Below, piece after piece: positions 17,059 to 26,490 of a stretch of 64,000 bases of DNA (its first letter is position 1; each line of letters starts with the position of its first letter). The DNA is from Lachnospiraceae bacterium. Lineage in GTDB: Bacteria > Bacillota_A > Clostridia > Lachnospirales > Lachnospiraceae. The notes below the pieces were generated by a model. It did not search any database and had not been told where the DNA came from. It saw only the letters and a program-made list of their open reading frames with translations. The translations under genes and the position numbers were made by a program. The stretch lies in contig JAGAIR010000008.1 in the NCBI GenBank assembly GCA_017626435.1, positions 1-64,000 on the forward strand, given 5' to 3'.

Positions 17059-17604
17059 ATGCTGATTACAACGACTTACCATAGAGAACGTGCCAGAGAA
17101 TATGCCAGACGCTGGGCGTTTGAACGTAATCCGATATTCTATGATTTTGCAGGGATCGGAGGAGACTGTACGAGCTTTGTGTCACAGTGTGTTTATGCCG
17201 GATGCTGTGAGATGAATTATAATGTGATCAATGGCTGGTATTACAGCAATTTAGAGAATCGTTCTCCTTCCTGGTCAGGAGTATCTTTTTTCTATGACTT
17301 TATCGTGACGAACAAAGGAAATGGTCCTTTTGGTATGGAGACAGATGAGAACGGGCTGGAGGTGGGAGATGTGATCCAGCTGCAAAATCCACAGGGGCGG
17401 TTTTATCATACTCTCCTGGTAACAGGGTTTGAGGATAATACGTATCTGGTCAGTGCCCATACGGATGATGCATTTGACAGAAGACTGGATTCTTACCGCT
17501 ATGCCGGAATACGTTTCCTGCATATTTTAGGAGTCAGAGAATACGAAAAAAATAAAGAATCCTGTTTTTATAATTTTTATAACGGAATTTCTCTAAATGG
17601 TTAA
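17059..17604 (+). CDS. Amidase-domain (Amidase_6) protein
   Basis: A 181-aa protein with the putative cysteine-hydrolase motif GGDCTSFVSQCVYAG (Cys about 37), a mid-sequence GLEVGDVIQLQNPQGRFYHT (His about 117) and SAHTDD. This is the arrangement of the putative amidase domain PF12671, often found in envelope or spore-related proteins. No signal peptide is visible with the start ATG 17059; readings from further upstream are not supported by a ribosome site. It lies 80 bp after the anti-sigma gene and ends in a terminator, so the three genes may form one operon in which this enzyme is an output (inference). Confidence 0.75.
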   Translation: MLITTTYHRERAREYARRWAFERNPIFYDFAGIGGDCTSFVSQCVYAGCCEMNYNVINGWYYSNLENRSPSWSGVSFFYDFIVTNKGNGPFGMETDENGLEVGDVIQLQNPQGRFYHTLLVTGFEDNTYLVSAHTDDAFDRRLDSYRYAGIRFLHILGVREYEKNKESCFYNFYNGISLNG

Positions 17605-18191: not shown

Positions 18192-18220
18192 TTGTGAATC
18201 AGCTGCAAATAGCTTATAAT
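18192..18220 (+). promoter_or_regulatory. Promoter of the STM4015-STM4011 cluster
   Basis: TTGTGA (18192-18197), 17-bp spacer, TATAAT (18215-18220), 75 bp before the first cluster gene. No operator symmetry was noted. Confidence 0.65.
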
Positions 18221-18294
18221 GAATGAAAAAAGTAAAAAGTGGAAAACAAGTCTGGTAGTATTTTTTATCAGCAAAAGGAAGAAGGAGGTAGGTT

Positions 18295-19164
18295 ATGTAT
18301 AAGAGCAAACGGTTTTCTTACACTTACGAGGACTGGGAAGATGGAGGAAAGAATTCCAAAACTATGGTGGAGGACATTACTAAGGATCCTGATTTTTCTG
18401 GTCTGGAGGAAATAGTGATCGGCTGCTGGGGTGAGTGTTGGGATGAGGAGGAAGGAGCACAGGCTCTGATTGACGGAATCGTAGAAAATAAAGAAAAGTT
18501 TTCTCATATCAAAAGTCTTTTTGTAGGCGATATGGATTTTGAAGACTGCGAGGTTTCCTGGATTATTCAGGGAGATTACTCCAGACTCTGGACTGCTATG
18601 CCACAATTAGAAAAATTGACGATCAAGGGAAGCTGCAATCTGGTGCTGGGAGATATCCAGCATGATAAATTACAGCATCTGGAGATCATCTGTGGAGGAC
18701 TTCCGTCCAGTGTCATTCAGTCTGTACAGAAAGCAAAGCTGCCTTCTTTGAGAACTTTGCTGTTGTATATTGGGGTGGAGGATTATGGATTTGACGGAGA
18801 TGTTTCAACGATTAAAGAATTGCTGACACAATCTGATTTTCCAGAGCTTACTTATCTGGGAATTACGGACAGTGAGATTCAGGATGAGATTACAGAGGCC
18901 GTATTAAACTGTAAATACATAAACCAGATCACAACATTAGATCTGTCTATGGGGTCTTTGACGGATAGGGGCGGACAGATGTTGCTGGATAAATTGCCGG
19001 ATCATCCCAATATAAAAGCATTGGATTTGGAATATCATTTTCTGTCAGATGAAATGATGGATCAATTGCAGGAGATGGATGGCATAGAAGTTAATGTGGA
19101 TGATGAGCAGGAAGCCGATGAATATGACGGAGAAGTGTATTACTATCCGATGCTGACAGAGTAA
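18295..19164 (+). CDS. STM4015 family protein (leucine-rich-repeat-like)
   Basis: A 289-aa acidic cytoplasmic protein. Blocks LEEIVIGCWGECWDEEEGA, IKSLFVGDMDFEDCEVSWI, LEKLTIKGSCNL, LEIICGGLPSSV, LTYLGITDSEIQDEI and ITTLDLSMGSLTDRG then LDLEYHFLSDEMM match, in order, the STM4015 family named after a Salmonella locus. The repeated strand-helix pattern is like a ribonuclease-inhibitor LRR. It has no catalytic motif, so a scaffold or substrate role is plausible (inference). AAGGAGG is 5 nt before the start. It is first in a tight five-gene operon; the next ATG overlaps its stop. No function is established for the family. Confidence 0.85.
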   Translation: MYKSKRFSYTYEDWEDGGKNSKTMVEDITKDPDFSGLEEIVIGCWGECWDEEEGAQALIDGIVENKEKFSHIKSLFVGDMDFEDCEVSWIIQGDYSRLWTAMPQLEKLTIKGSCNLVLGDIQHDKLQHLEIICGGLPSSVIQSVQKAKLPSLRTLLLYIGVEDYGFDGDVSTIKELLTQSDFPELTYLGITDSEIQDEITEAVLNCKYINQITTLDLSMGSLTDRGGQMLLDKLPDHPNIKALDLEYHFLSDEMMDQLQEMDGIEVNVDDEQEADEYDGEVYYYPMLTE

Positions 19165-20156
19165 TGATGATTCTGATCGGAGAGGAAGGTTCCAAGCGGA
19201 CCGATTATATGAAAAAAGCAGCAGCCAGTTTAGACACCGGACTGGAGGTGATAGGCTGGGATGCTCTGCTAAAGGGAATTGATCTGAGACAGTTTGAGGG
19301 GGCGGCGGTAAAAATAGACCCGCCCTCTTTTCAGACTGCCCATTTATTGGATATGCAGAAGCATTTGGAAGAATATCGAGATGTGTTGCAGAGACTGGCC
19401 CAGGCAGAATGCAGGTTTCTGAATCCTCCAGGAAGTATCTGGCAGTTGCTGGATAAAAAGGAGACGAAACTGCTCTTGCAGGGACGGGGGATCCCTGTGA
19501 CACAGATGTTTTCTGAAGACATCCGGACGGCAGAGCAGTTGTTGGAACGTATGGAACGAAAGCACTGCTATTCTGTTTTTGTCAAGCCAAGATATTTTTC
19601 CGGGGCTGCGGGAGTGGCAGCATTTCGCATTCACCCAGTTTCTGGAAAAATGAGACTGTATACTTCCTGCCGGACAGAGGGAAAACAGCTGGTCAATACG
19701 AAAAAGCTTTTTGCACTGGATGACAGGAGAGAAATCCTTCCGCTGCTCAACCAGTTATTATTATTGGATTGTGTGGTGGAGCGATGGCATCCCAAAGCAG
19801 ATTTTCAGAAGAAAAGCTTTGATCTGCGGATCGTATTTCAGTTTGGACATGTGGCACATGTTGTAGTGAGACAGTCAAAGGGGCCGATTACCAATCTTCA
19901 TCTCAATAATCAGGCACTGGATCTACAGGCATTAGGTCTGGAGAAAAAAATATGGAAGGAGATTGTGGGGGTGTGTGAACAGGCAGTTTCTTTTTTCCCG
20001 AATCTTTCAATGGCTGGAATTGATATTTTACTGGAGAGGGAAACTCTGCGTCCACTGATCATTGAAATGAATGGACAGGGGGACTTAATTTATCAGGATA
20101 TCTATGGGGAAAATCGGATCTATCGGGAGCAGGTGAGAGAATTATGCAGAGCATAG
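19164..20156 (+). CDS. STM4014 family protein (ATP-grasp-like)
   Basis: A 330-aa protein with ATP-grasp features: a preATP-like N-terminal part, LDKKETKLLLQGRGIPVTQM, the P-loop-like strand SVFVKPRYFSGAAGVAAF with the ATP-binding Lys (about 143), DLRIVFQFGHVAHVVVRQ, and the C-terminal metal site MAGIDILL...IEMNGQGDLIYQ with Asp, Glu and Asn. ATP-grasp enzymes join a carboxylate to an amine or thiol through an acyl phosphate, so it may ligate the cluster product or a peptide (inference). Its start overlaps the STM4015 stop (TAATG), which implies coupled translation. The family is recognised by order and motifs; the substrate is unknown. Confidence 0.83.
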   Translation: MMILIGEEGSKRTDYMKKAAASLDTGLEVIGWDALLKGIDLRQFEGAAVKIDPPSFQTAHLLDMQKHLEEYRDVLQRLAQAECRFLNPPGSIWQLLDKKETKLLLQGRGIPVTQMFSEDIRTAEQLLERMERKHCYSVFVKPRYFSGAAGVAAFRIHPVSGKMRLYTSCRTEGKQLVNTKKLFALDDRREILPLLNQLLLLDCVVERWHPKADFQKKSFDLRIVFQFGHVAHVVVRQSKGPITNLHLNNQALDLQALGLEKKIWKEIVGVCEQAVSFFPNLSMAGIDILLERETLRPLIIEMNGQGDLIYQDIYGENRIYREQVRELCRA

Positions 20157-20947
20157 ATATGAATCAGATTGTGGGAAAGTACCATATTTTATTTGTCTGT
20201 CTGGATTCCCTTCGATATGATGTGGCATATGAAGAACAACAGAACCAGGGGACTCCTGTATTAAACCGCTATGGGGGATGGAGGAAATGCCAGGCTCCCG
20301 GAAATTTTACCTATCCTTCCCATCAGGCGATGTTTGCAGGCTTTTTTCCTGTGGACGAAGGTGTTTTGGAAATGAAGAACCGGGAAAAATTGTTCTTCTC
20401 GGAGGATATAGGGATGGGACGAAAAGCACCGGAGGGAGCCTTTACCTTTCGAGGTTCAAACTGGATTGAGGGACTGGAAAAGGAAGGATATGAAACCATC
20501 TGCATCGGTGGTGTCAGTTTCTTTGACAAAAGAACTGATATCGGAAAGGTCATGCCATCCTATTTTAAACAGAGCTATTGGAATCCTTCTTTTGGATGCA
20601 GGGTAAAGGATTCTCCACGAAATCAGGTAGACTTTGCTGTGCGTAAGATCGGACAGATGCCTGAAGGGCAAAAAATAATGATGTATCTGAATTTTTCTGC
20701 TCTGCACTATCCCAATTACTTTTATGTACAGGGAGAAAAAAAGGATAGCAAACAGGCTCATGCGGCGGCACTCCGTTATGTAGATGAACAGCTGAAGCGG
20801 TTGTTTGCAGCATTTTGTGAAAAGGGAAAGACTTTTGTTATCTGCTGTTCCGATCATGGTACCTGTTATGGAGAGGATGGAGTCTGGTATCACGGAGTGA
20901 ATCATCCTATTGTAAATACAGTACCATACAAACATTTTATCTTGTGA
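20144..20947 (+). CDS. STM4013/SEN3800 family hydrolase (alkaline-phosphatase fold)
   Basis: A 267-aa cytoplasmic protein of the sulfatase/alkaline phosphatase superfamily. The first metal Asp is in FVCLDSLRYD (D21), the likely nucleophile Thr in GNFTYPSHQ (T56), and the second metal site in CCSDHGTCYGEDG with a His in VWYHGVNHP near the C terminus. It lacks a formylglycine-type C/S-x-P-x-R site, so a phosphate- or phosphonate-ester substrate is likelier than a sulfate ester. It is shorter than secreted sulfatases and has no signal peptide. It overlaps the upstream gene by 13 bp; ATG 20159 is an alternative start. It is the third gene of the cluster. Confidence 0.83.
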   Translation: MQSIDMNQIVGKYHILFVCLDSLRYDVAYEEQQNQGTPVLNRYGGWRKCQAPGNFTYPSHQAMFAGFFPVDEGVLEMKNREKLFFSEDIGMGRKAPEGAFTFRGSNWIEGLEKEGYETICIGGVSFFDKRTDIGKVMPSYFKQSYWNPSFGCRVKDSPRNQVDFAVRKIGQMPEGQKIMMYLNFSALHYPNYFYVQGEKKDSKQAHAAALRYVDEQLKRLFAAFCEKGKTFVICCSDHGTCYGEDGVWYHGVNHPIVNTVPYKHFIL

Positions 20948-21011
20948 TTCTGAAAGAGTTGTTCTTGTAATTGCTTTTTATTTTCATTTTAGCAGGAGGG
21001 AGGGGATACAG

Positions 21012-22301
21012 ATGGAAAATCCGTATCGTCAATATATGTACAGTTATCCTCATAAAACGGCATACGGTAGATTACAGGATGTTCATTTAAAGGATTATCT
21101 CAGCAGACTGACAGGCAGGGAAAACAGTCTTTATCTTCACATTCCGTTTTGTCAGTATAAATGCGGCTACTGCAATCTGTTTTCGGTTGCCGGCCAGTCA
21201 GAGCGATGGATGAGAGATTATGTGGATGCCATGCAGCGTCAGGCTGAGCAGATTTCAACCGCTTTACCGAAAGGAGTGAAATTTACAGATCTGACACTGG
21301 GAGGCGGGACGCCTTTGATTTTGCCGCCGTCCCTGCTGCGCAGAGTATTTTCTATGGCGAGGGATTCTTTTGGATTTGAGAGTGAAGGACATTCTGTGGT
21401 AGTAGAAACTTCTCCCAATCAGACAACAGAGGAAAAACTAGCCATATTAAAAGAAGAAGGGGTGAAACGGATCAGCATCGGTGTCCAGAGTTTTCATGAG
21501 GAGGAACTGGCTGCCCTGCACCGTTTTCATAAAGTGGAATCTGTCAGAAGGGCGCTGCGGTCTATCAGGAAGATGGAATTTGAGTGTATGAATATTGATC
21601 TGATCTATGGGATTCCGGGACAGACGATGGACAGCCTGAAAGATTCTTTACAGCAGGCTCTGGAATATGAACCGGAGGAATTGTTTGTCTATCCGTTGTA
21701 TGTAAAGCCAGGGACGTTTCTTTACCAGCAGGGTCTAAAACGCTCTGGAGATACTTTTTTGATGTATCAATGTGTCAGAGATATATTGAGGGATGCAGGA
21801 TACCAGCCACATTCCATGCGGAGGTTTGTAAAATCCTCTCAAAAGCTGCCAGAATCGCTGTGTGGTTTTGGCGATACGATTTCTATCGGCTGCGGAGGCA
21901 GAAGTTACATAGATGAATTGCATTTCTGTACAGTATATGCTGTGAAACAGGAGGATTGTCTCACGATTTTAAAGGAATATCTGGAAACAGAGGATTTTTT
22001 AAAGATAACCAATGGATTTATCCTATCCCAGGAAGAACAGAAGAGAAGATATGTGATAAAACATATATTATTTGGCAGGGGAATCAACCAACAGGATTAT
22101 CAGAGACATTTTGGCAGGACGGTATTACAGGATTTTCCGTTAATCAAGGAATGGGAACAGGAAGGGTATGTTACGGCAGGGGAAGAGTATATTACTTTGA
22201 CAGAAGATGGTTTTGCGCTGTCTGACGATCTGGGACCACAGTTGATCTCTTCTGAAGTGAGTAAAAGAACAGAGGAGTTTTATGAAAAATGGATGATTTG
22301 A
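21012..22301 (+). CDS. STM4012 family radical SAM protein (HemN-like)
   Basis: A 429-aa radical SAM enzyme. The motif C47-Q-Y-K-C51-G-Y-C54 in LHIPFCQYKCGYCNLF binds the 4Fe-4S cluster and SAM; LTLGGGTPLIL (GGE-like), VVETSPNQTTEEKLA, GVKRISIGVQSFHEEEL and NIDLIYGIPGQTMDSL are the HemN-type core. The C-terminal HemN-like part is present (about 300-429). Although similar to coproporphyrinogen dehydrogenase, its place between STM4013 and STM4011 argues for the STM4012 family and a different substrate. A very strong ribosome site (GGAGGGAGGGG) precedes ATG 21012, after a 64-bp gap. Confidence 0.87.
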   Translation: MENPYRQYMYSYPHKTAYGRLQDVHLKDYLSRLTGRENSLYLHIPFCQYKCGYCNLFSVAGQSERWMRDYVDAMQRQAEQISTALPKGVKFTDLTLGGGTPLILPPSLLRRVFSMARDSFGFESEGHSVVVETSPNQTTEEKLAILKEEGVKRISIGVQSFHEEELAALHRFHKVESVRRALRSIRKMEFECMNIDLIYGIPGQTMDSLKDSLQQALEYEPEELFVYPLYVKPGTFLYQQGLKRSGDTFLMYQCVRDILRDAGYQPHSMRRFVKSSQKLPESLCGFGDTISIGCGGRSYIDELHFCTVYAVKQEDCLTILKEYLETEDFLKITNGFILSQEEQKRRYVIKHILFGRGINQQDYQRHFGRTVLQDFPLIKEWEQEGYVTAGEEYITLTEDGFALSDDLGPQLISSEVSKRTEEFYEKWMI

Positions 22302-22341
22302 AACCGTGATTGATCAATGCAGGGAAAGTGAGGACAGGCAG

Positions 22342-23910
22342 ATGAAACGACAGTGGTATTACCGGGGACGTTTAAAGTCCTGTAATTATTCCTGCAGTTA
22401 TTGTCCTTTTTCGAAAAGGAAGGGAAATGAACGGGAGAAGCAGGCAGATAAAAAGGCACTGTTTCGTTTTATTGAGGAGATCAACAGACAGAAGGATGCC
22501 GGCGGAGCAGTGCAGATCGTTCCCTATGGAGAAGCGTTGATCTATCCATATTACTGGGAAGGGCTTGCCGGATTAAGTAAAAATCCAAGATTGGACGCAA
22601 TCGGTGCCCAGAGTAATTTTAGTTTTTCGGTGGAGCAGATGCTTTCTGTTTACTGCAGCCAGGGGGGGATATTGGAAAAGCTGCGTTTATGGGGAACCTT
22701 TCATCCGGAAATGACAACGATGGAACAATTTGTGCATCAGTGTAACTTATTGTCTGGGCAGGATGTATCGTATTGTGTGGGGGCTGTGGGTGATCCCGGA
22801 CAGTTGGAGGTGATCCGTCGTTTGCGTCAGGCTCTGCCGGACTCTGTCTATCTCTGGATCAATAAGATGGATGGACTGGAGAGGAACTATACATCCTCTG
22901 AAATAGAGGCGTTTTTGGAAATCGATGAATATTTTGAGATGGAACTGATCCACCATAGGGCAGATGTAACACTATGTGCCAGCAACCGGTTTGTGGAGGC
23001 AGACGGAACCATGCATCGCTGCAATATCTGCCGGGAGAGTCTGGGAAATTTTTACGAAGATACAGAGAGGAGTATGGTGCAGTTTCCTCAAAATACCGGT
23101 GACGTTGTCTGCTGCAATAGAAAAGAATGCAGCTGTTATCTTTCCTATTGCAACCGGAAGGAAGAACAGCTTCTCTTTTTCCATCCCTATCCGGCATTTC
23201 GGATTCCGGTCTACCCGAAGGCAGCCTTTTTTGATGTGGATGGGACTTTGGTGCCAGAGGGACAGAAGCAGATACCAGAGAAGTATGCCAGATGGCTTAT
23301 CCGGTTATCTGATCACTGTGACATTTATCTTGTGACCTCACTTCCCGTTAAAGATGCAAGGAGGAAGCTGGATCCGGTCTGGGATGTACTTTGTGGAGGG
23401 GTCTTTGCCAATGGAGGAAGAAGGATCATATGGAAGCGGTGTCAGAAGGAGAAAGACTGGCAGGACAAAAGAGAAAGATTACTGGATGAGACGGAACAGA
23501 TAGAGACTGGCTGGTTGGAGCAGGCACAAAAGCAGAGAAAACGATATGGATTTACCCTGCATACCTATTGGGATGGAAAGCATGTCTATAAGGTGACACT
23601 GACGTTTCGTAAGGGGAGACTGATAGAAAAAAAACGGGAAGAATTTTTAAAAGAGCTTGCTGTGAGCCTGGGAATTCCGGAATCCTGCCAGTTGATATGG
23701 GAAGATCACTGTATACAGGTTATCCAAAATGGAACCGGGAAATTAGATGGGATTCTGAATATCTGTCGAAAAATGGGATATGAGAAACAGGAGGTTGCAG
23801 TGTTTGGAAATTCCGAAAATGATATCCCGATGCTGGACTATTTTCCATTATCCGTAGCAGCCAGGGGAAGCAGCGGGAAAGTAAAACAATGTGCAGGAAT
23901 TTCGTTTTGA
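22342..23910 (+). CDS. STM4011 family radical SAM protein fused to HAD phosphatase
   Basis: A 522-aa fusion. Residues 1-285 are the STM4011-type radical SAM domain: WYYRGRLKSCNYSC, with C14-N-Y-S-C18-S-Y-C21. It ends in a cysteine-rich tail (HRCNICRES, CCNRKECSCYLSYC) that could hold auxiliary Fe-S clusters. Residues 290-522 are a Cof-type HAD phosphatase: FFDVDGTLV (D298, D300), VTSLPV, and GNSENDIPML (489-498). STM4011 proteins are usually about 280-300 aa, so the fusion is unusual and hints that a phosphate-removal step belongs to the pathway. ATG 22342 is preferred (GAGGACAGG upstream); GTG 22306 has no ribosome site. Last gene of the cluster, followed by a terminator. Confidence 0.85.
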   Translation: MKRQWYYRGRLKSCNYSCSYCPFSKRKGNEREKQADKKALFRFIEEINRQKDAGGAVQIVPYGEALIYPYYWEGLAGLSKNPRLDAIGAQSNFSFSVEQMLSVYCSQGGILEKLRLWGTFHPEMTTMEQFVHQCNLLSGQDVSYCVGAVGDPGQLEVIRRLRQALPDSVYLWINKMDGLERNYTSSEIEAFLEIDEYFEMELIHHRADVTLCASNRFVEADGTMHRCNICRESLGNFYEDTERSMVQFPQNTGDVVCCNRKECSCYLSYCNRKEEQLLFFHPYPAFRIPVYPKAAFFDVDGTLVPEGQKQIPEKYARWLIRLSDHCDIYLVTSLPVKDARRKLDPVWDVLCGGVFANGGRRIIWKRCQKEKDWQDKRERLLDETEQIETGWLEQAQKQRKRYGFTLHTYWDGKHVYKVTLTFRKGRLIEKKREEFLKELAVSLGIPESCQLIWEDHCIQVIQNGTGKLDGILNICRKMGYEKQEVAVFGNSENDIPMLDYFPLSVAARGSSGKVKQCAGISF

Positions 23911-23924
23911 AAAGAAAGAAAAAG

Positions 23925-23949
23925 GGCTGCCGGCAATCTGCCGGCAGCC
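23925..23949. terminator. Terminator after the STM cluster
   Basis: GGCTGCCGGCA (23925-23935) and TGCCGGCAGCC (23939-23949) form a perfect 11-bp stem with a 3-nt loop, followed by TGGTTTT. It sits between convergent genes and is flanked by A and T runs, so it may work both ways. Confidence 0.9.
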
Positions 23950-23980
23950 TGGTTTTATAAAATACTTTTTGGATCAGAGA

Positions 23981-24922
23981 TTAGTATCTTGTGTATACAG
24001 TAAAACCACTGGATGCCAATGATGAAGAGGTGATCTTTCTGTCCCAATGAACGGAGGAATTATAATTTCCTTCTACGACAGTAATAGAATCAGCATTTTT
24101 GGTCAAAACAATGACAGAGTGATAATTTCCGATTCGGATATTGTCTCCAACTTTAATCTGATGGAAGGAGGTATGGGTCTTGTATGGTTTTGCTGTTCCG
24201 AATACAGTATCACTTAATTTTGCAGCAAAGCCATAGCAGCCATAGCCATTCCCGAACTGTGGAGAATAATAGTAATAGCTGTTGGTCAGTGTCATTCCCT
24301 CAGGATAGGTGCTTCGCAGGGAATTTAATGTGTTGTATGCACTTTCCTCTGTAACATTGGAGACAGAAGGAGCCACTGTGGAAACCGGAGTCTGCGTTGT
24401 GACCGGCTTTTGTGTAACAACCGGTTTCTGTGTGTTGACAGGGGACTGGGTTGTTACAGGAATTTTCGTATTGACAGGAGCCTTTGTGGAATCTGGTGTT
24501 TGTATGATGATCGGATTCCTGGTAGCCACAGGAGTCTGTGTGGAAACCGGCTTCTGTGTAGAAACGGGTTTTTGTGTGGAAACGGGTTTCTGGGAGTGAA
24601 CGGGTTTTTTTGATGTTACGGTCACTCTGCAGACATATTTTTTTGTCTTTGTTTTTGCAGTAATCCGTGTTTTACCAGCCTGTTTTGCGGTAACCTTTCC
24701 TTTCTGGCTGACAACAGCTATTTTCTGATTGGATGATTTCCAGGTGATCTTTCCGGTAGTTTTTTTGAGCTTCAGGGTGTATTGTTTTCCCTGGGGGAGC
24801 ACCAGACGGGTCTTATTCAGTTTATTGGATGCTGCACTGGATGTACCTGGCTGTACAAAGCCTGTTGCCAGAGAAAGAGTAAGTAATCCTGTAATTGCTT
24901 TTCTTTTTATACTTTTATTCAT
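23981..24922 (-). CDS. Secreted Big_2 / cysteine-peptidase-like protein with PV repeats
   Basis: A 313-aa exported protein. There is a signal peptide (residues 1-30, MNKSIKRKAITGLLTLSLAT, cut after SSAA). A bacterial Ig-like Big_2 domain follows (about 35-105, ITWKSSNQKIAVVSQKGKVT). Next comes a repeat stalk (105-185) of six-residue T-Q-K-P-V-S units. The C-terminal domain has NGYGCYGFAAKLSD (Cys), GNYHSVIVL (His) and EGNYNSSVHW (Asn), the spacing of a papain/CHAP-like fold. It is probably on the cell surface, the repeats spanning the wall (inference). GGAGG is 5 nt before ATG 24922; a longer reading to 24979 adds no signal-like sequence. Convergent with the STM cluster. Confidence 0.75.
   Translation of the reverse strand: MNKSIKRKAITGLLTLSLATGFVQPGTSSAASNKLNKTRLVLPQGKQYTLKLKKTTGKITWKSSNQKIAVVSQKGKVTAKQAGKTRITAKTKTKKYVCRVTVTSKKPVHSQKPVSTQKPVSTQKPVSTQTPVATRNPIIIQTPDSTKAPVNTKIPVTTQSPVNTQKPVVTQKPVTTQTPVSTVAPSVSNVTEESAYNTLNSLRSTYPEGMTLTNSYYYYSPQFGNGYGCYGFAAKLSDTVFGTAKPYKTHTSFHQIKVGDNIRIGNYHSVIVLTKNADSITVVEGNYNSSVHWDRKITSSSLASSGFTVYTRY
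24390..24603 (-). repeat. 18-bp tandem repeats encoding (T)QKPVS units
   Basis: About twelve imperfect 18-bp units inside the secreted protein gene encode variants of Q-K/T/S-P-V-x-T. The copies nearest the Ig-like domain (24535-24600) are almost identical, which indicates recent expansion; the distal copies have drifted. Copy number is likely to vary between strains. Confidence 0.75.
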
Positions 24923-24954
24923 AGTAACCTCCATTTCTGCGCATGCTTTGCGCG

Positions 24955-24984
24955 TAACATGTGAAGTTTTTTTCTGCACATGTT
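24955..24984. repeat. 9-bp inverted repeat in 5' leader of secreted protein gene
   Basis: TAACATGTG (24955-24963) is perfectly inverted at 24976-24984 with a 12-nt spacer. It lies 33-62 bp before the minus-strand start, so it is either an operator or an mRNA hairpin. Confidence 0.4.
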
Positions 24985-25172: not shown

Positions 25173-25601
25173 ATGAAGGAATTTATCAAAGAATTTAAAG
25201 AGTTTATCAGCCGTGGCAATGTGATGGATATGGCAGTTGGTATTATTATCGGAGGTGCTTTTACCAGTATTGTTTCTTCTCTGGTAGAAGATATTATTAA
25301 TCCGGTTCTTGGATTGTTTGGTGGAATGAACTTTGACCAGTATCATGTAAAGCTGTTGGGACAGGTGACCTTAAATTATGGAAGATTTATTACTGCTGTC
25401 ATCAATTTCCTGATTATGGCTTTGGTTATTTTCGTGATTATCAAGGCGATGAATACGGCAGCCGAAAAGCTTGGAAAAAGGGAAGAAGCAGAGGAAGCAG
25501 TAACTACAAAAAAATGTCCATTCTGCCGGAGTGAAATCGACAGGGAGGCTACCAGATGTCCGCATTGCACTTCAGTACTTGAAAACGCATCGGAGGAGTA
25601 G
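25173..25601 (+). CDS. mscL: Large-conductance mechanosensitive channel with zinc ribbon
   Basis: A 142-aa MscL. The N-terminal helix KEFKEFISRGNVMDMAVGII is the family signature, followed by TM1 (to about 45), a short periplasmic loop (LFGGMNFDQYHVKLLG) and TM2 (about 72-95, FLIMALVIFVIIKA). After the cytoplasmic helix (AAEKLGKREEAEEA) comes a two-CxxC zinc ribbon, CPFCRSEIDREATRCPHC, replacing the usual C-terminal bundle end. The channel opens under membrane tension to release solutes on osmotic downshock. ATG 25173 follows AAGGGAG by 7 nt. It is close to the next gene (4 bp gap), so co-transcription with the HAD and dGTPase genes is likely. Confidence 0.93.
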   Translation: MKEFIKEFKEFISRGNVMDMAVGIIIGGAFTSIVSSLVEDIINPVLGLFGGMNFDQYHVKLLGQVTLNYGRFITAVINFLIMALVIFVIIKAMNTAAEKLGKREEAEEAVTTKKCPFCRSEIDREATRCPHCTSVLENASEE

Positions 25602-25605
25602 AAAA

Positions 25606-26490
25606 ATGGCGGAAAAGAGATATCAGGGGTTCATTGGACTTGATTTGGATGGAACGGTATTTAACAATGAAAAAAAAATTTCAGAAGGCAACAAGAAAGC
25701 AATCAGAGAAGCAATAAAGCAGGGATATTGTGTGGCGCCGGTAACAGGAAGACCTATGACGGGGCTTCCAGAGGAACTGATGGATATTTCGGAAATCGAA
25801 TATGCAGTAACTGCCAACGGAGCGGTTATCTATCAGATTGAGGATTTTTCTCAGAAAAAATGGAACAGGATTTATGAGGACCTGATGACAGATGAAAAGG
25901 TTCTGGAGATATTGGAGATTCTGAAGGAATACCCGGTCGTCCCGGACTGTTTTGTTATGGGAAAGGGGCATATGCCGGAGTTTGGAAGGGAATGGATTCC
26001 CAGAATGGGACTGGCACCGGCAATGGCAGATTATATTTTATCTGGCAGAGAGTTTTTTCCAGATCTGATGGAATACGTCCGGAAGAAACCGGAAAAGGTA
26101 GAAAAAGTCACCATCAACTTTTTTCAGAATACAGAAGGTCTGAAAAAGAAACAGGAAGTCTATGAGCGTCTGAGCCAGGTCAAAGATATCACACTGGTTT
26201 CCGGTGCACCGCACAATCTGGAGGTCAATACGCCAACTGCAAGAAAAGGCAATGGGTTGCTGAAGCTGGCACAGCTGCTGGGTATTCCGGAAGAAAATAC
26301 AATGGCATGCGGTGATGACAGTAATGACCTGGACATGCTCCAGAAAGCTGCGTTTGGAGTTGCTATGGGCAATGCTACAGAAAATGTAAAGAAAGAGGCA
26401 GATTTTGTTACTCTGAGTAATGAGGAAGACGGGGTTGCCTTTGCCATTGGTGAGTTTATGAAAGGTGGTAGAAGGGATGGCAGATTATAA
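25606..26490 (+). CDS. Cof-type HAD-IIB family hydrolase
   Basis: A 294-aa phosphatase-type enzyme. Motif I GLDLDGTVF (about 10-18), motif II APVTGRPM (about 45), motif III region NTPTARKGNGLLKLAQLLGI with the Lys, and motif IV MACGDDSNDLDML are all present, plus the C2B cap between. Such enzymes remove phosphate from sugar phosphates or nucleotide-like substrates; specificity cannot be predicted. GGAGGAG lies 8 nt before ATG 25606, so longer upstream readings through the mscL end are rejected. It overlaps the next gene by 14 bp. Confidence 0.92.
   Translation: MAEKRYQGFIGLDLDGTVFNNEKKISEGNKKAIREAIKQGYCVAPVTGRPMTGLPEELMDISEIEYAVTANGAVIYQIEDFSQKKWNRIYEDLMTDEKVLEILEILKEYPVVPDCFVMGKGHMPEFGREWIPRMGLAPAMADYILSGREFFPDLMEYVRKKPEKVEKVTINFFQNTEGLKKKQEVYERLSQVKDITLVSGAPHNLEVNTPTARKGNGLLKLAQLLGIPEENTMACGDDSNDLDMLQKAAFGVAMGNATENVKKEADFVTLSNEEDGVAFAIGEFMKGGRRDGRL

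Follow-up and report, generated by a model that had tools for sequence, protein, structure and literature searches.

A five-gene STM4011–STM4015 unit of Lachnospiraceae whose leucine-rich-repeat protein, with an invariant C-terminal glutamate, may be the substrate of its ATP-grasp ligase

In amino-group carrier systems, as described in the excerpts of PMC9303977 used here, the γ-carboxylate of a carrier protein's C-terminal glutamate is coupled to an amine, followed by modification and release; the same excerpts describe pearlins, whose building blocks are processed on a protein C-terminus with a radical S-adenosylmethionine (SAM) step included, and excerpts of PMC4741518 describe RimK, which extends the RpsF C-terminus with glutamates. 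Here, we compare these systems with a unit of five closely packed plus-strand genes from a Lachnospiraceae bacterium (GCA_017626435.1, contig JAGAIR010000008.1), located in a stretch of 64,000 nucleotides that we call the window and whose positions serve as coordinates throughout. The gene products belong, in order, to the NCBIfam families STM4015, STM4014, STM4013, STM4012, and STM4011, which are already named in genome annotation under names that carry no function. We propose, with a probability of roughly 0.55, that the ATP-grasp ligase STM4014 attaches an amine to the glutamate at the C-terminus of STM4015, a leucine-rich-repeat (LRR) protein, and that the radical SAM enzymes and hydrolases of the unit then process the tail-bound group. 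A proposed substrate—the STM4015 C-terminus—and a proposed first enzyme give this unit of unknown function, found in very different bacteria, a testable chemistry, and, if the proposal is true, LRR proteins would join the few carriers that serve small-molecule assembly via an amide bond.

The observation that carries this proposal is the tail of STM4015 (18295 to 19164, plus strand, 289 amino acids [aa]; NF038076, 336.7 bits at a cut-off of 275), a homolog of the solved structure 2ra8. Homologs are similar right up to the final residue, which is glutamate in all 120 homologs listed (of 1649 found), with YPMLTE as the ending in 92 of them; in the window, the C-terminal heptapeptide YYPMLTE, encoded at 19141 to 19161 on the plus strand, closes with this invariant residue. 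The terminal glutamate is likewise present in 28/28 sequences of a diverse set—six named phyla plus further Bacillota genomes, the window protein included—all of which have at least 280 aa and a conserved LRR body. Within this set, all sequences have T, S, G, or A at position −2, 26 have V, L, or I at −3, 24 have Y or F at −6, and 24 have R or Y at −7, with endings that range from NAMYTE in Salmonella, YPMITE in Bacteroides, and YPSLTE in Paenibacillus to FVALGE in Deinococcus, YVAVGE in Streptomyces, and YCSVAE in Calothrix. The Calothrix match lies below the family cut-off and its alignment ends at model position 269 of 290, before the tail, so the tail is no artefact of the family model. 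A gapped linker precedes the tail in the alignment of the 28 sequences, and its 20 residues hold on average 6.9 acidic and 1.0 basic ones; D and E make up a fraction of 0.17 of the whole protein, from which ∼3.4 acidic residues would be expected. By way of control, no common last residue is seen among the 120 listed homologs of STM4014 or among the 120 of STM4011, and two weak LRR matches in a genome without an STM4014 above cut-off (G095) end in tyrosine. The STM4015 tail with its invariant C-terminal glutamate is a new result of the present work.

The adjoining gene encodes the candidate partner, STM4014 (19164 to 20156, plus strand, 330 aa; 312.3 bits, cut-off 175). A structure model built on 65 sequences, with a mean predicted local distance difference test (pLDDT) score of 90.2, has ArgX in complex with LysW as its top Foldseek match, and the next nine include D-cycloserine synthetase, a graspetide ligase, RimK (also with RpsF), and LysX. 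In VIA-align, ArgX (22.9; root mean square deviation 2.8, 269 aligned), LysX (22.8), and RimK (22.3) are tied, followed by D-cycloserine synthetase (21.5) and the first D-Ala-D-Ala ligase (20.7). The model thereby suggests a ligase of the LysX/ArgX/RimK type by fold, a fold alone showing no function. A loop, Rx[SA]xxx[ILV]TN, is found in 65/65 aligned STM4014 sequences and in 8/8 from several phyla; its strict form, RxSxxxITN, occurs in 36 of the 65, in 5 of the 8, and in 2 of 3 LysX-type genes fetched with the LysX model (loci L060 and L061 above cut-off, L062 below). The third LysX-type gene has a loop one residue longer, and an open reading frame (ORF) ending in EDWGE adjoins each of the three. 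K141, E206, D220, R222, R236, T243, N244, D287, E301, and N303 of STM4014 are invariant in the 65 sequences, as is the stretch 245 to 248, which is the sole stretch of at least three residues with a pLDDT under 50 in the model and might be a mobile substrate loop. We had set down the tail hypothesis and chosen LysW and RimK for comparison before any STM4014 model was made; the fold and tail lines are not fully independent, because the weak MptN/RimK matches were already known by then. The earlier note on this DNA had remarked in passing that the LRR protein might even be the substrate, and our data favour this side remark, because the C-terminal glutamate is invariant and the ligase has a LysX/ArgX/RimK-type fold.

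STM4015, STM4014, STM4013, and STM4011 are found above cut-off in the identical 6 of 299 Bacillota genomes, a count that covers these four families and in which one of the six (G001) is the centre of the sample and known to carry the unit. At E ≤ 0.001, with the cut-off ignored, the four families match in 7, 66, 12, and 26 genomes, respectively; we take the surplus genomes to hold generic relatives. The five-gene order is kept in 12 of 15 Lachnospiraceae loci, contig ends cutting two of the remaining three, and recurs in Salmonella, Paenibacillus, Methylobacterium, Deinococcus, and Streptomyces. Exceptions are locus L003 (genome G002), with STM4012 and STM4011 together and STM4015 on another contig; genome G236, with the families spread over contigs C176, C77, and C14 and only STM4013 and STM4011 together, on C14; and a Bacteroides finegoldii plasmid, where the unit looks broken: its 14.8-kb stretch contains no match to STM4012, and the STM4013 piece (L022:8851-9216) matches residues 3 to 57 only. 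Two STM4015 genes stand side by side in Streptomyces fungicidicus, Deinococcus QL22, and Nonomuraea, and an Embleya record has four STM4015 genes and one STM4014. Six pairs of STM4015 paralogs share 50 to 57% body identity in five cases and 76% in one, and the tail is kept in all; several tail-bearing STM4015 proteins per single ligase are the pattern expected of a substrate or carrier.

The remaining three genes encode enzymes that could act downstream. STM4013 (20144 to 20947, plus strand, 267 aa; NF038075, 377.2 bits, cut-off 250; PF00884, 51.3 bits) is an alkaline-phosphatase-fold hydrolase in which FT[YW] and a downstream DHGT are invariant in 7/7 sequences. The threonine of FT[YW] lies in the segment that holds the cysteine of sulfatases, and we predict this residue, Thr56 in the window protein, to be the nucleophile; the best sequence match in the Protein Data Bank (PDB) is a choline-sulfatase (2.5e-4), with nucleotide pyrophosphatases only at 0.016. 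STM4012 (21012 to 22301, plus strand, 429 aa; NF006067, 521.4 bits, cut-off 380) is a HemN-like radical SAM protein that scores 521 bits as STM4012 versus 182 for the next family, HemW. It is the only protein of the unit that matches anti-phage defence models in PADLOC (PDC-M51A, 3e-12; two viperin models, 7.6e-5 and 1.8e-4), matches that a common radical SAM core may explain. STM4011 (22342 to 23910, plus strand, 522 aa; NF038073, 281.1 bits, cut-off 200; also TIGR01484 and PF08282) is a fusion of a radical SAM enzyme with a HAD-IIB domain. In eight sequences from several phyla, its CxxxCxxC motif and five further C-terminal cysteines are invariant, which bears out the cysteine-rich tail that the earlier note had seen at the end of the radical SAM half; we take these five cysteines to resemble SPASM/twitch domains. 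Taken together, all five proteins exceed the curated NCBIfam cut-offs in a profile search of the kind suggested by that note, which had named the same five families in the same order.

How close, then, is this unit to the described systems? Like LysW with LysX or ArgX (excerpts of PMC9303977), it combines an acidic stretch and a C-terminal glutamate on a protein tail with a neighbouring ATP-grasp ligase that has the same fold, and STM4014 has most of the LysX loop. Unlike in LysW systems, the carrier would be an LRR protein homologous to 2ra8 and not the small LysW, the tail reads YxPMLTE/RYVAVGE instead of EDWGE, and the unit contains two radical SAM enzymes and no release peptidase of the LysK type. 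We see a unit that would work like an amino-group carrier system and yet do not assign it to one, because the carrier is no LysW homolog. With RimK/RpsF it shares the ATP-grasp fold, a weak TIGR00768 match, and, as proposed here, a protein C-terminus as substrate, whereas Escherichia coli RimK lacks the Rx[SA]xxx[ILV]TN loop and the surroundings of rimK (8 annotated genes, 6 kb) hold no radical SAM gene. The proposed building on a protein C-terminus and the radical SAM step recall pearlins as they appear in the excerpts; pearlins, in contrast, rely on tRNA-dependent PEARLs, and no PEARL (LanB-like) family match is listed for the five unit proteins. With respect to NCBIfam, all five proteins are members of STM4011 to STM4015, the HAD fusion being a lineage form.

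In the mechanism that we propose, STM4015 would be a protein-borne substrate, its LRR body presenting a short C-terminal tail with a free terminal glutamate. By analogy with amino-group carrier systems and RimK, STM4014 should use ATP to activate a carboxylate of this last glutamate, to which it would then join an amino compound, and the later enzymes should act on the product: STM4012, STM4011, and STM4013 would rework the tail-bound group, and the HAD-IIB domain would take off a phosphate solely in lineages that have a HAD, fused or neighbouring. Only tentatively would we go further and add the unit to LysW carriers and pearlins as a third type of biosynthesis on a protein: the C-terminal glutamate of an LRR protein would bear a growing amino-acid-derived compound, and, as part of the same doubtful extension, that compound would be built in bacteria of several phyla by two radical SAM enzymes together with hydrolases of the phosphoryl-transfer type.

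Several findings weigh against a loaded tail. The window unit contains no product-releasing peptidase, and the annotations of the units examined in other organisms list none either; an Amidase_6 gene 0.7 kb upstream is not conserved, with no match in 31 related loci. A Calothrix plasmid with an STM4015 match has no ligase, a statement about the plasmid only, the chromosome not having been searched. The linker is not acidic everywhere (2 acidic and 3 basic of 20 residues in Strep_fung2; 3 acidic in Strep_cad_orph). On the ligase side, even profile searches of the PDB bring up no LysX match for STM4014, so that this kinship rests on the fold, the loop, and the weak MptN/RimK matches; its match to the RimK model TIGR00768 reaches 22.8 bits, far below the cut-off of 143.4, and ligases for free small molecules trail by only 1.4 to 2.2 Z units in the fold comparison. 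Finally, the LRR body is conserved too, holding eight of the nine invariant STM4015 columns among the 28 sequences, and the conserved C-terminus may be a docking signal instead. Taken to its end, the last point would make STM4015 a scaffold and nothing else, which gathers the enzymes through a tail that is a binding motif while the chemistry takes place on a free small molecule. We judge this quite unlikely: the conserved element is a free C-terminal glutamate on a mostly acidic, gapped linker, the partner ligase is nearest in fold to enzymes that act on such tails, and the four STM4015 copies per one STM4014 in Embleya are not easily accounted for by a single scaffold.

Unlikely, too, is a pathway resembling that of ribosomally synthesized and post-translationally modified peptides, with the tail as core peptide, radical SAM enzymes altering side chains (a conserved aromatic or hydrophobic residue), the ligase cross-linking or capping, and a general peptidase freeing the product. 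SPASM/twitch cysteines are present in many peptide-modifying radical SAM enzymes, and the five invariant STM4011 cysteines, which we presume to be of that kind, fit such a pathway, as do MdnC and PsnB among the STM4014 fold matches (graspetide ligases, going by the entry titles) and the tandem STM4015 copies, which look like multiple precursors. However, glutamate is the sole invariant residue of the tail, the side chains upstream of it differing across phyla; the 28 STM4015 proteins are long and share a conserved LRR body; and the window unit contains no leader peptidase or exporter, the upstream Amidase_6 gene not being conserved beside it. That the genes are chance neighbours of unrelated function, with a tail unlinked to the ligase, would agree with the three contigs of G236 and with L003, where only STM4012 and STM4011 stand together and the genome's STM4015 lies on another contig. 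It is nevertheless highly improbable, given that the four tested families occur in identical genomes and that the order is the same in most Lachnospiraceae loci, in Salmonella, and in Deinococcus.

The HAD half of STM4011 has a lesser place in our proposal. The HAD-IIB domain (23218 to 23895, plus strand) spans residues 307 to 518 of a 534-aa ORF and exceeds the cut-offs of TIGR01484 (46.3 bits, cut-off 41.8) and PF08282 (62.6 bits, cut-off 20.9). This ORF (22306 to 23910) opens at GTG 22306, and ATG 22342 gives 522 aa; the closest homolog among the matches listed has 522 aa, which suggests a start at ATG 22342. In 522-aa numbering, D298, D300, T302, T332, K467, and D494 are invariant in 62 aligned sequences, and we take D298/D300 (DxD nucleophile), T332 (motif II T/S), K467 (motif III), and D494 (motif IV) to be the HAD catalytic motifs. 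The model of the fused protein has a pLDDT of 88.7, and the nearest folds of its HAD half are 2rar, 2rb5, and 1ymq, the latter two being the sugar-phosphate phosphatase BT4131.

Many assemblies carry the fusion, and, with all five families matched as well, neither of the two outcomes that the earlier note had named as counting against it came about. Among the 120 homologs listed of 618 found, 117 have fusion length (at least 430 aa), and 115 of these have DxDGT beyond residue 250, in a search that admits 0.55 to 1.75 times the query length and under-counts unfused forms. In an independent sample of 15 Lachnospiraceae loci found via STM4012, one of which (L010, at a contig end) is not judgeable, STM4011 continues into HAD sequence in 12 of 14, in L002 only to the contig end and in L012 with a shortened HAD, and L003 and L014 show no continuation. 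The L012 fusion (L012:9284-10513) leaves HAD query residues 75 to 182 unmatched and its frame stops at 409 aa, which suggests a decaying HAD half. In the six Bacillota genomes, STM4011 frames of fusion length (501, 483, and 519 aa) stand against frames of 331, 296, and 309 aa; the HAD match of the 483-aa frame (G155) spans 71 residues only, and the 519-aa frame (G236) was judged from length alone. The Bacteroides finegoldii record has the fusion, and in the Salmonella record a Cof-type HAD is encoded by a gene of its own, which overlaps the STM4011 end; no HAD gene occurs in the annotated Paenibacillus, Methylobacterium, Deinococcus, and Streptomyces units or in loci L054 to L056, which have Paenibacillus-like tails. 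The HAD is thus an accessory step, beside or inside STM4011 in some lineages only, because the Salmonella record encodes it separately and the units of Paenibacillus type and of actinobacteria that we examined lack it. Of the earlier note's reading, the families, their order, and the HAD fusion hold, and where it left the choice between a multi-step small-molecule and a peptide-modifying pathway, our data favour the LRR protein as substrate; the HAD half, being dispensable across the family, should not count as a core step, and the fusion, there ascribed to this instance, is common in Lachnospiraceae.

In the open-access library searched, STM4010, STM4013, and STM4015 each turn up in a single table entry, across three Salmonella papers; STM4011, STM4012, STM4014, and SEN3800 are not mentioned, nor are the family names of STM4015, STM4014, STM4012, and STM4011 or the structure 2ra8 and its accession. 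Of the four terms amino-group carrier protein, leucine-rich repeat, ATP-grasp, and radical SAM, no paper there contains as many as three.

One promoter and one terminator had been thought to frame the unit. The intrinsic terminator (23924 to 23950, plus strand; 12-pair stem, 9 GC pairs) is strong, and its sequence also looks like a minus-strand terminator for the convergent gene at 23981 to 24979; the promoter candidate (18192 to 18220, plus strand) is a consensus match only, sigma-70-like at 10 of 12 positions, and such sites are only slightly enriched in the region (18 versus 12.4 ± 3.3 in shuffled DNA). The upstream Amidase_6 protein (17059 to 17604; PF12671, 113.6 bits, cut-off 23.2) is probably unrelated to the unit, because it has no match in the related loci, and a second, unfused Cof-type HAD-IIB hydrolase (157 bits, cut-off 137) is encoded at 25531 to 26490, 1.6 kb past the unit. 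On a Streptomyces cadmiisoli plasmid, an annotated HAD-family acid phosphatase (L027:7657-8307) adjoins a lone STM4015 gene. A DUF6745 protein and a protein of ∼100 aa with GE[LV]TGH[SA]H adjoin units of Methylobacterium, Deinococcus, Streptomyces, and Nonomuraea (L023:5398-6723, L024:11860-13181, L025:7066-8530, L030:11810-13119, and L029:11704-13133); the four DUF6745 C-termini read whole are alike (YSPLVET, YEPLKET, YRPAVEA, and YQPAAEA), and this protein is possibly a second tail-bearing substrate.

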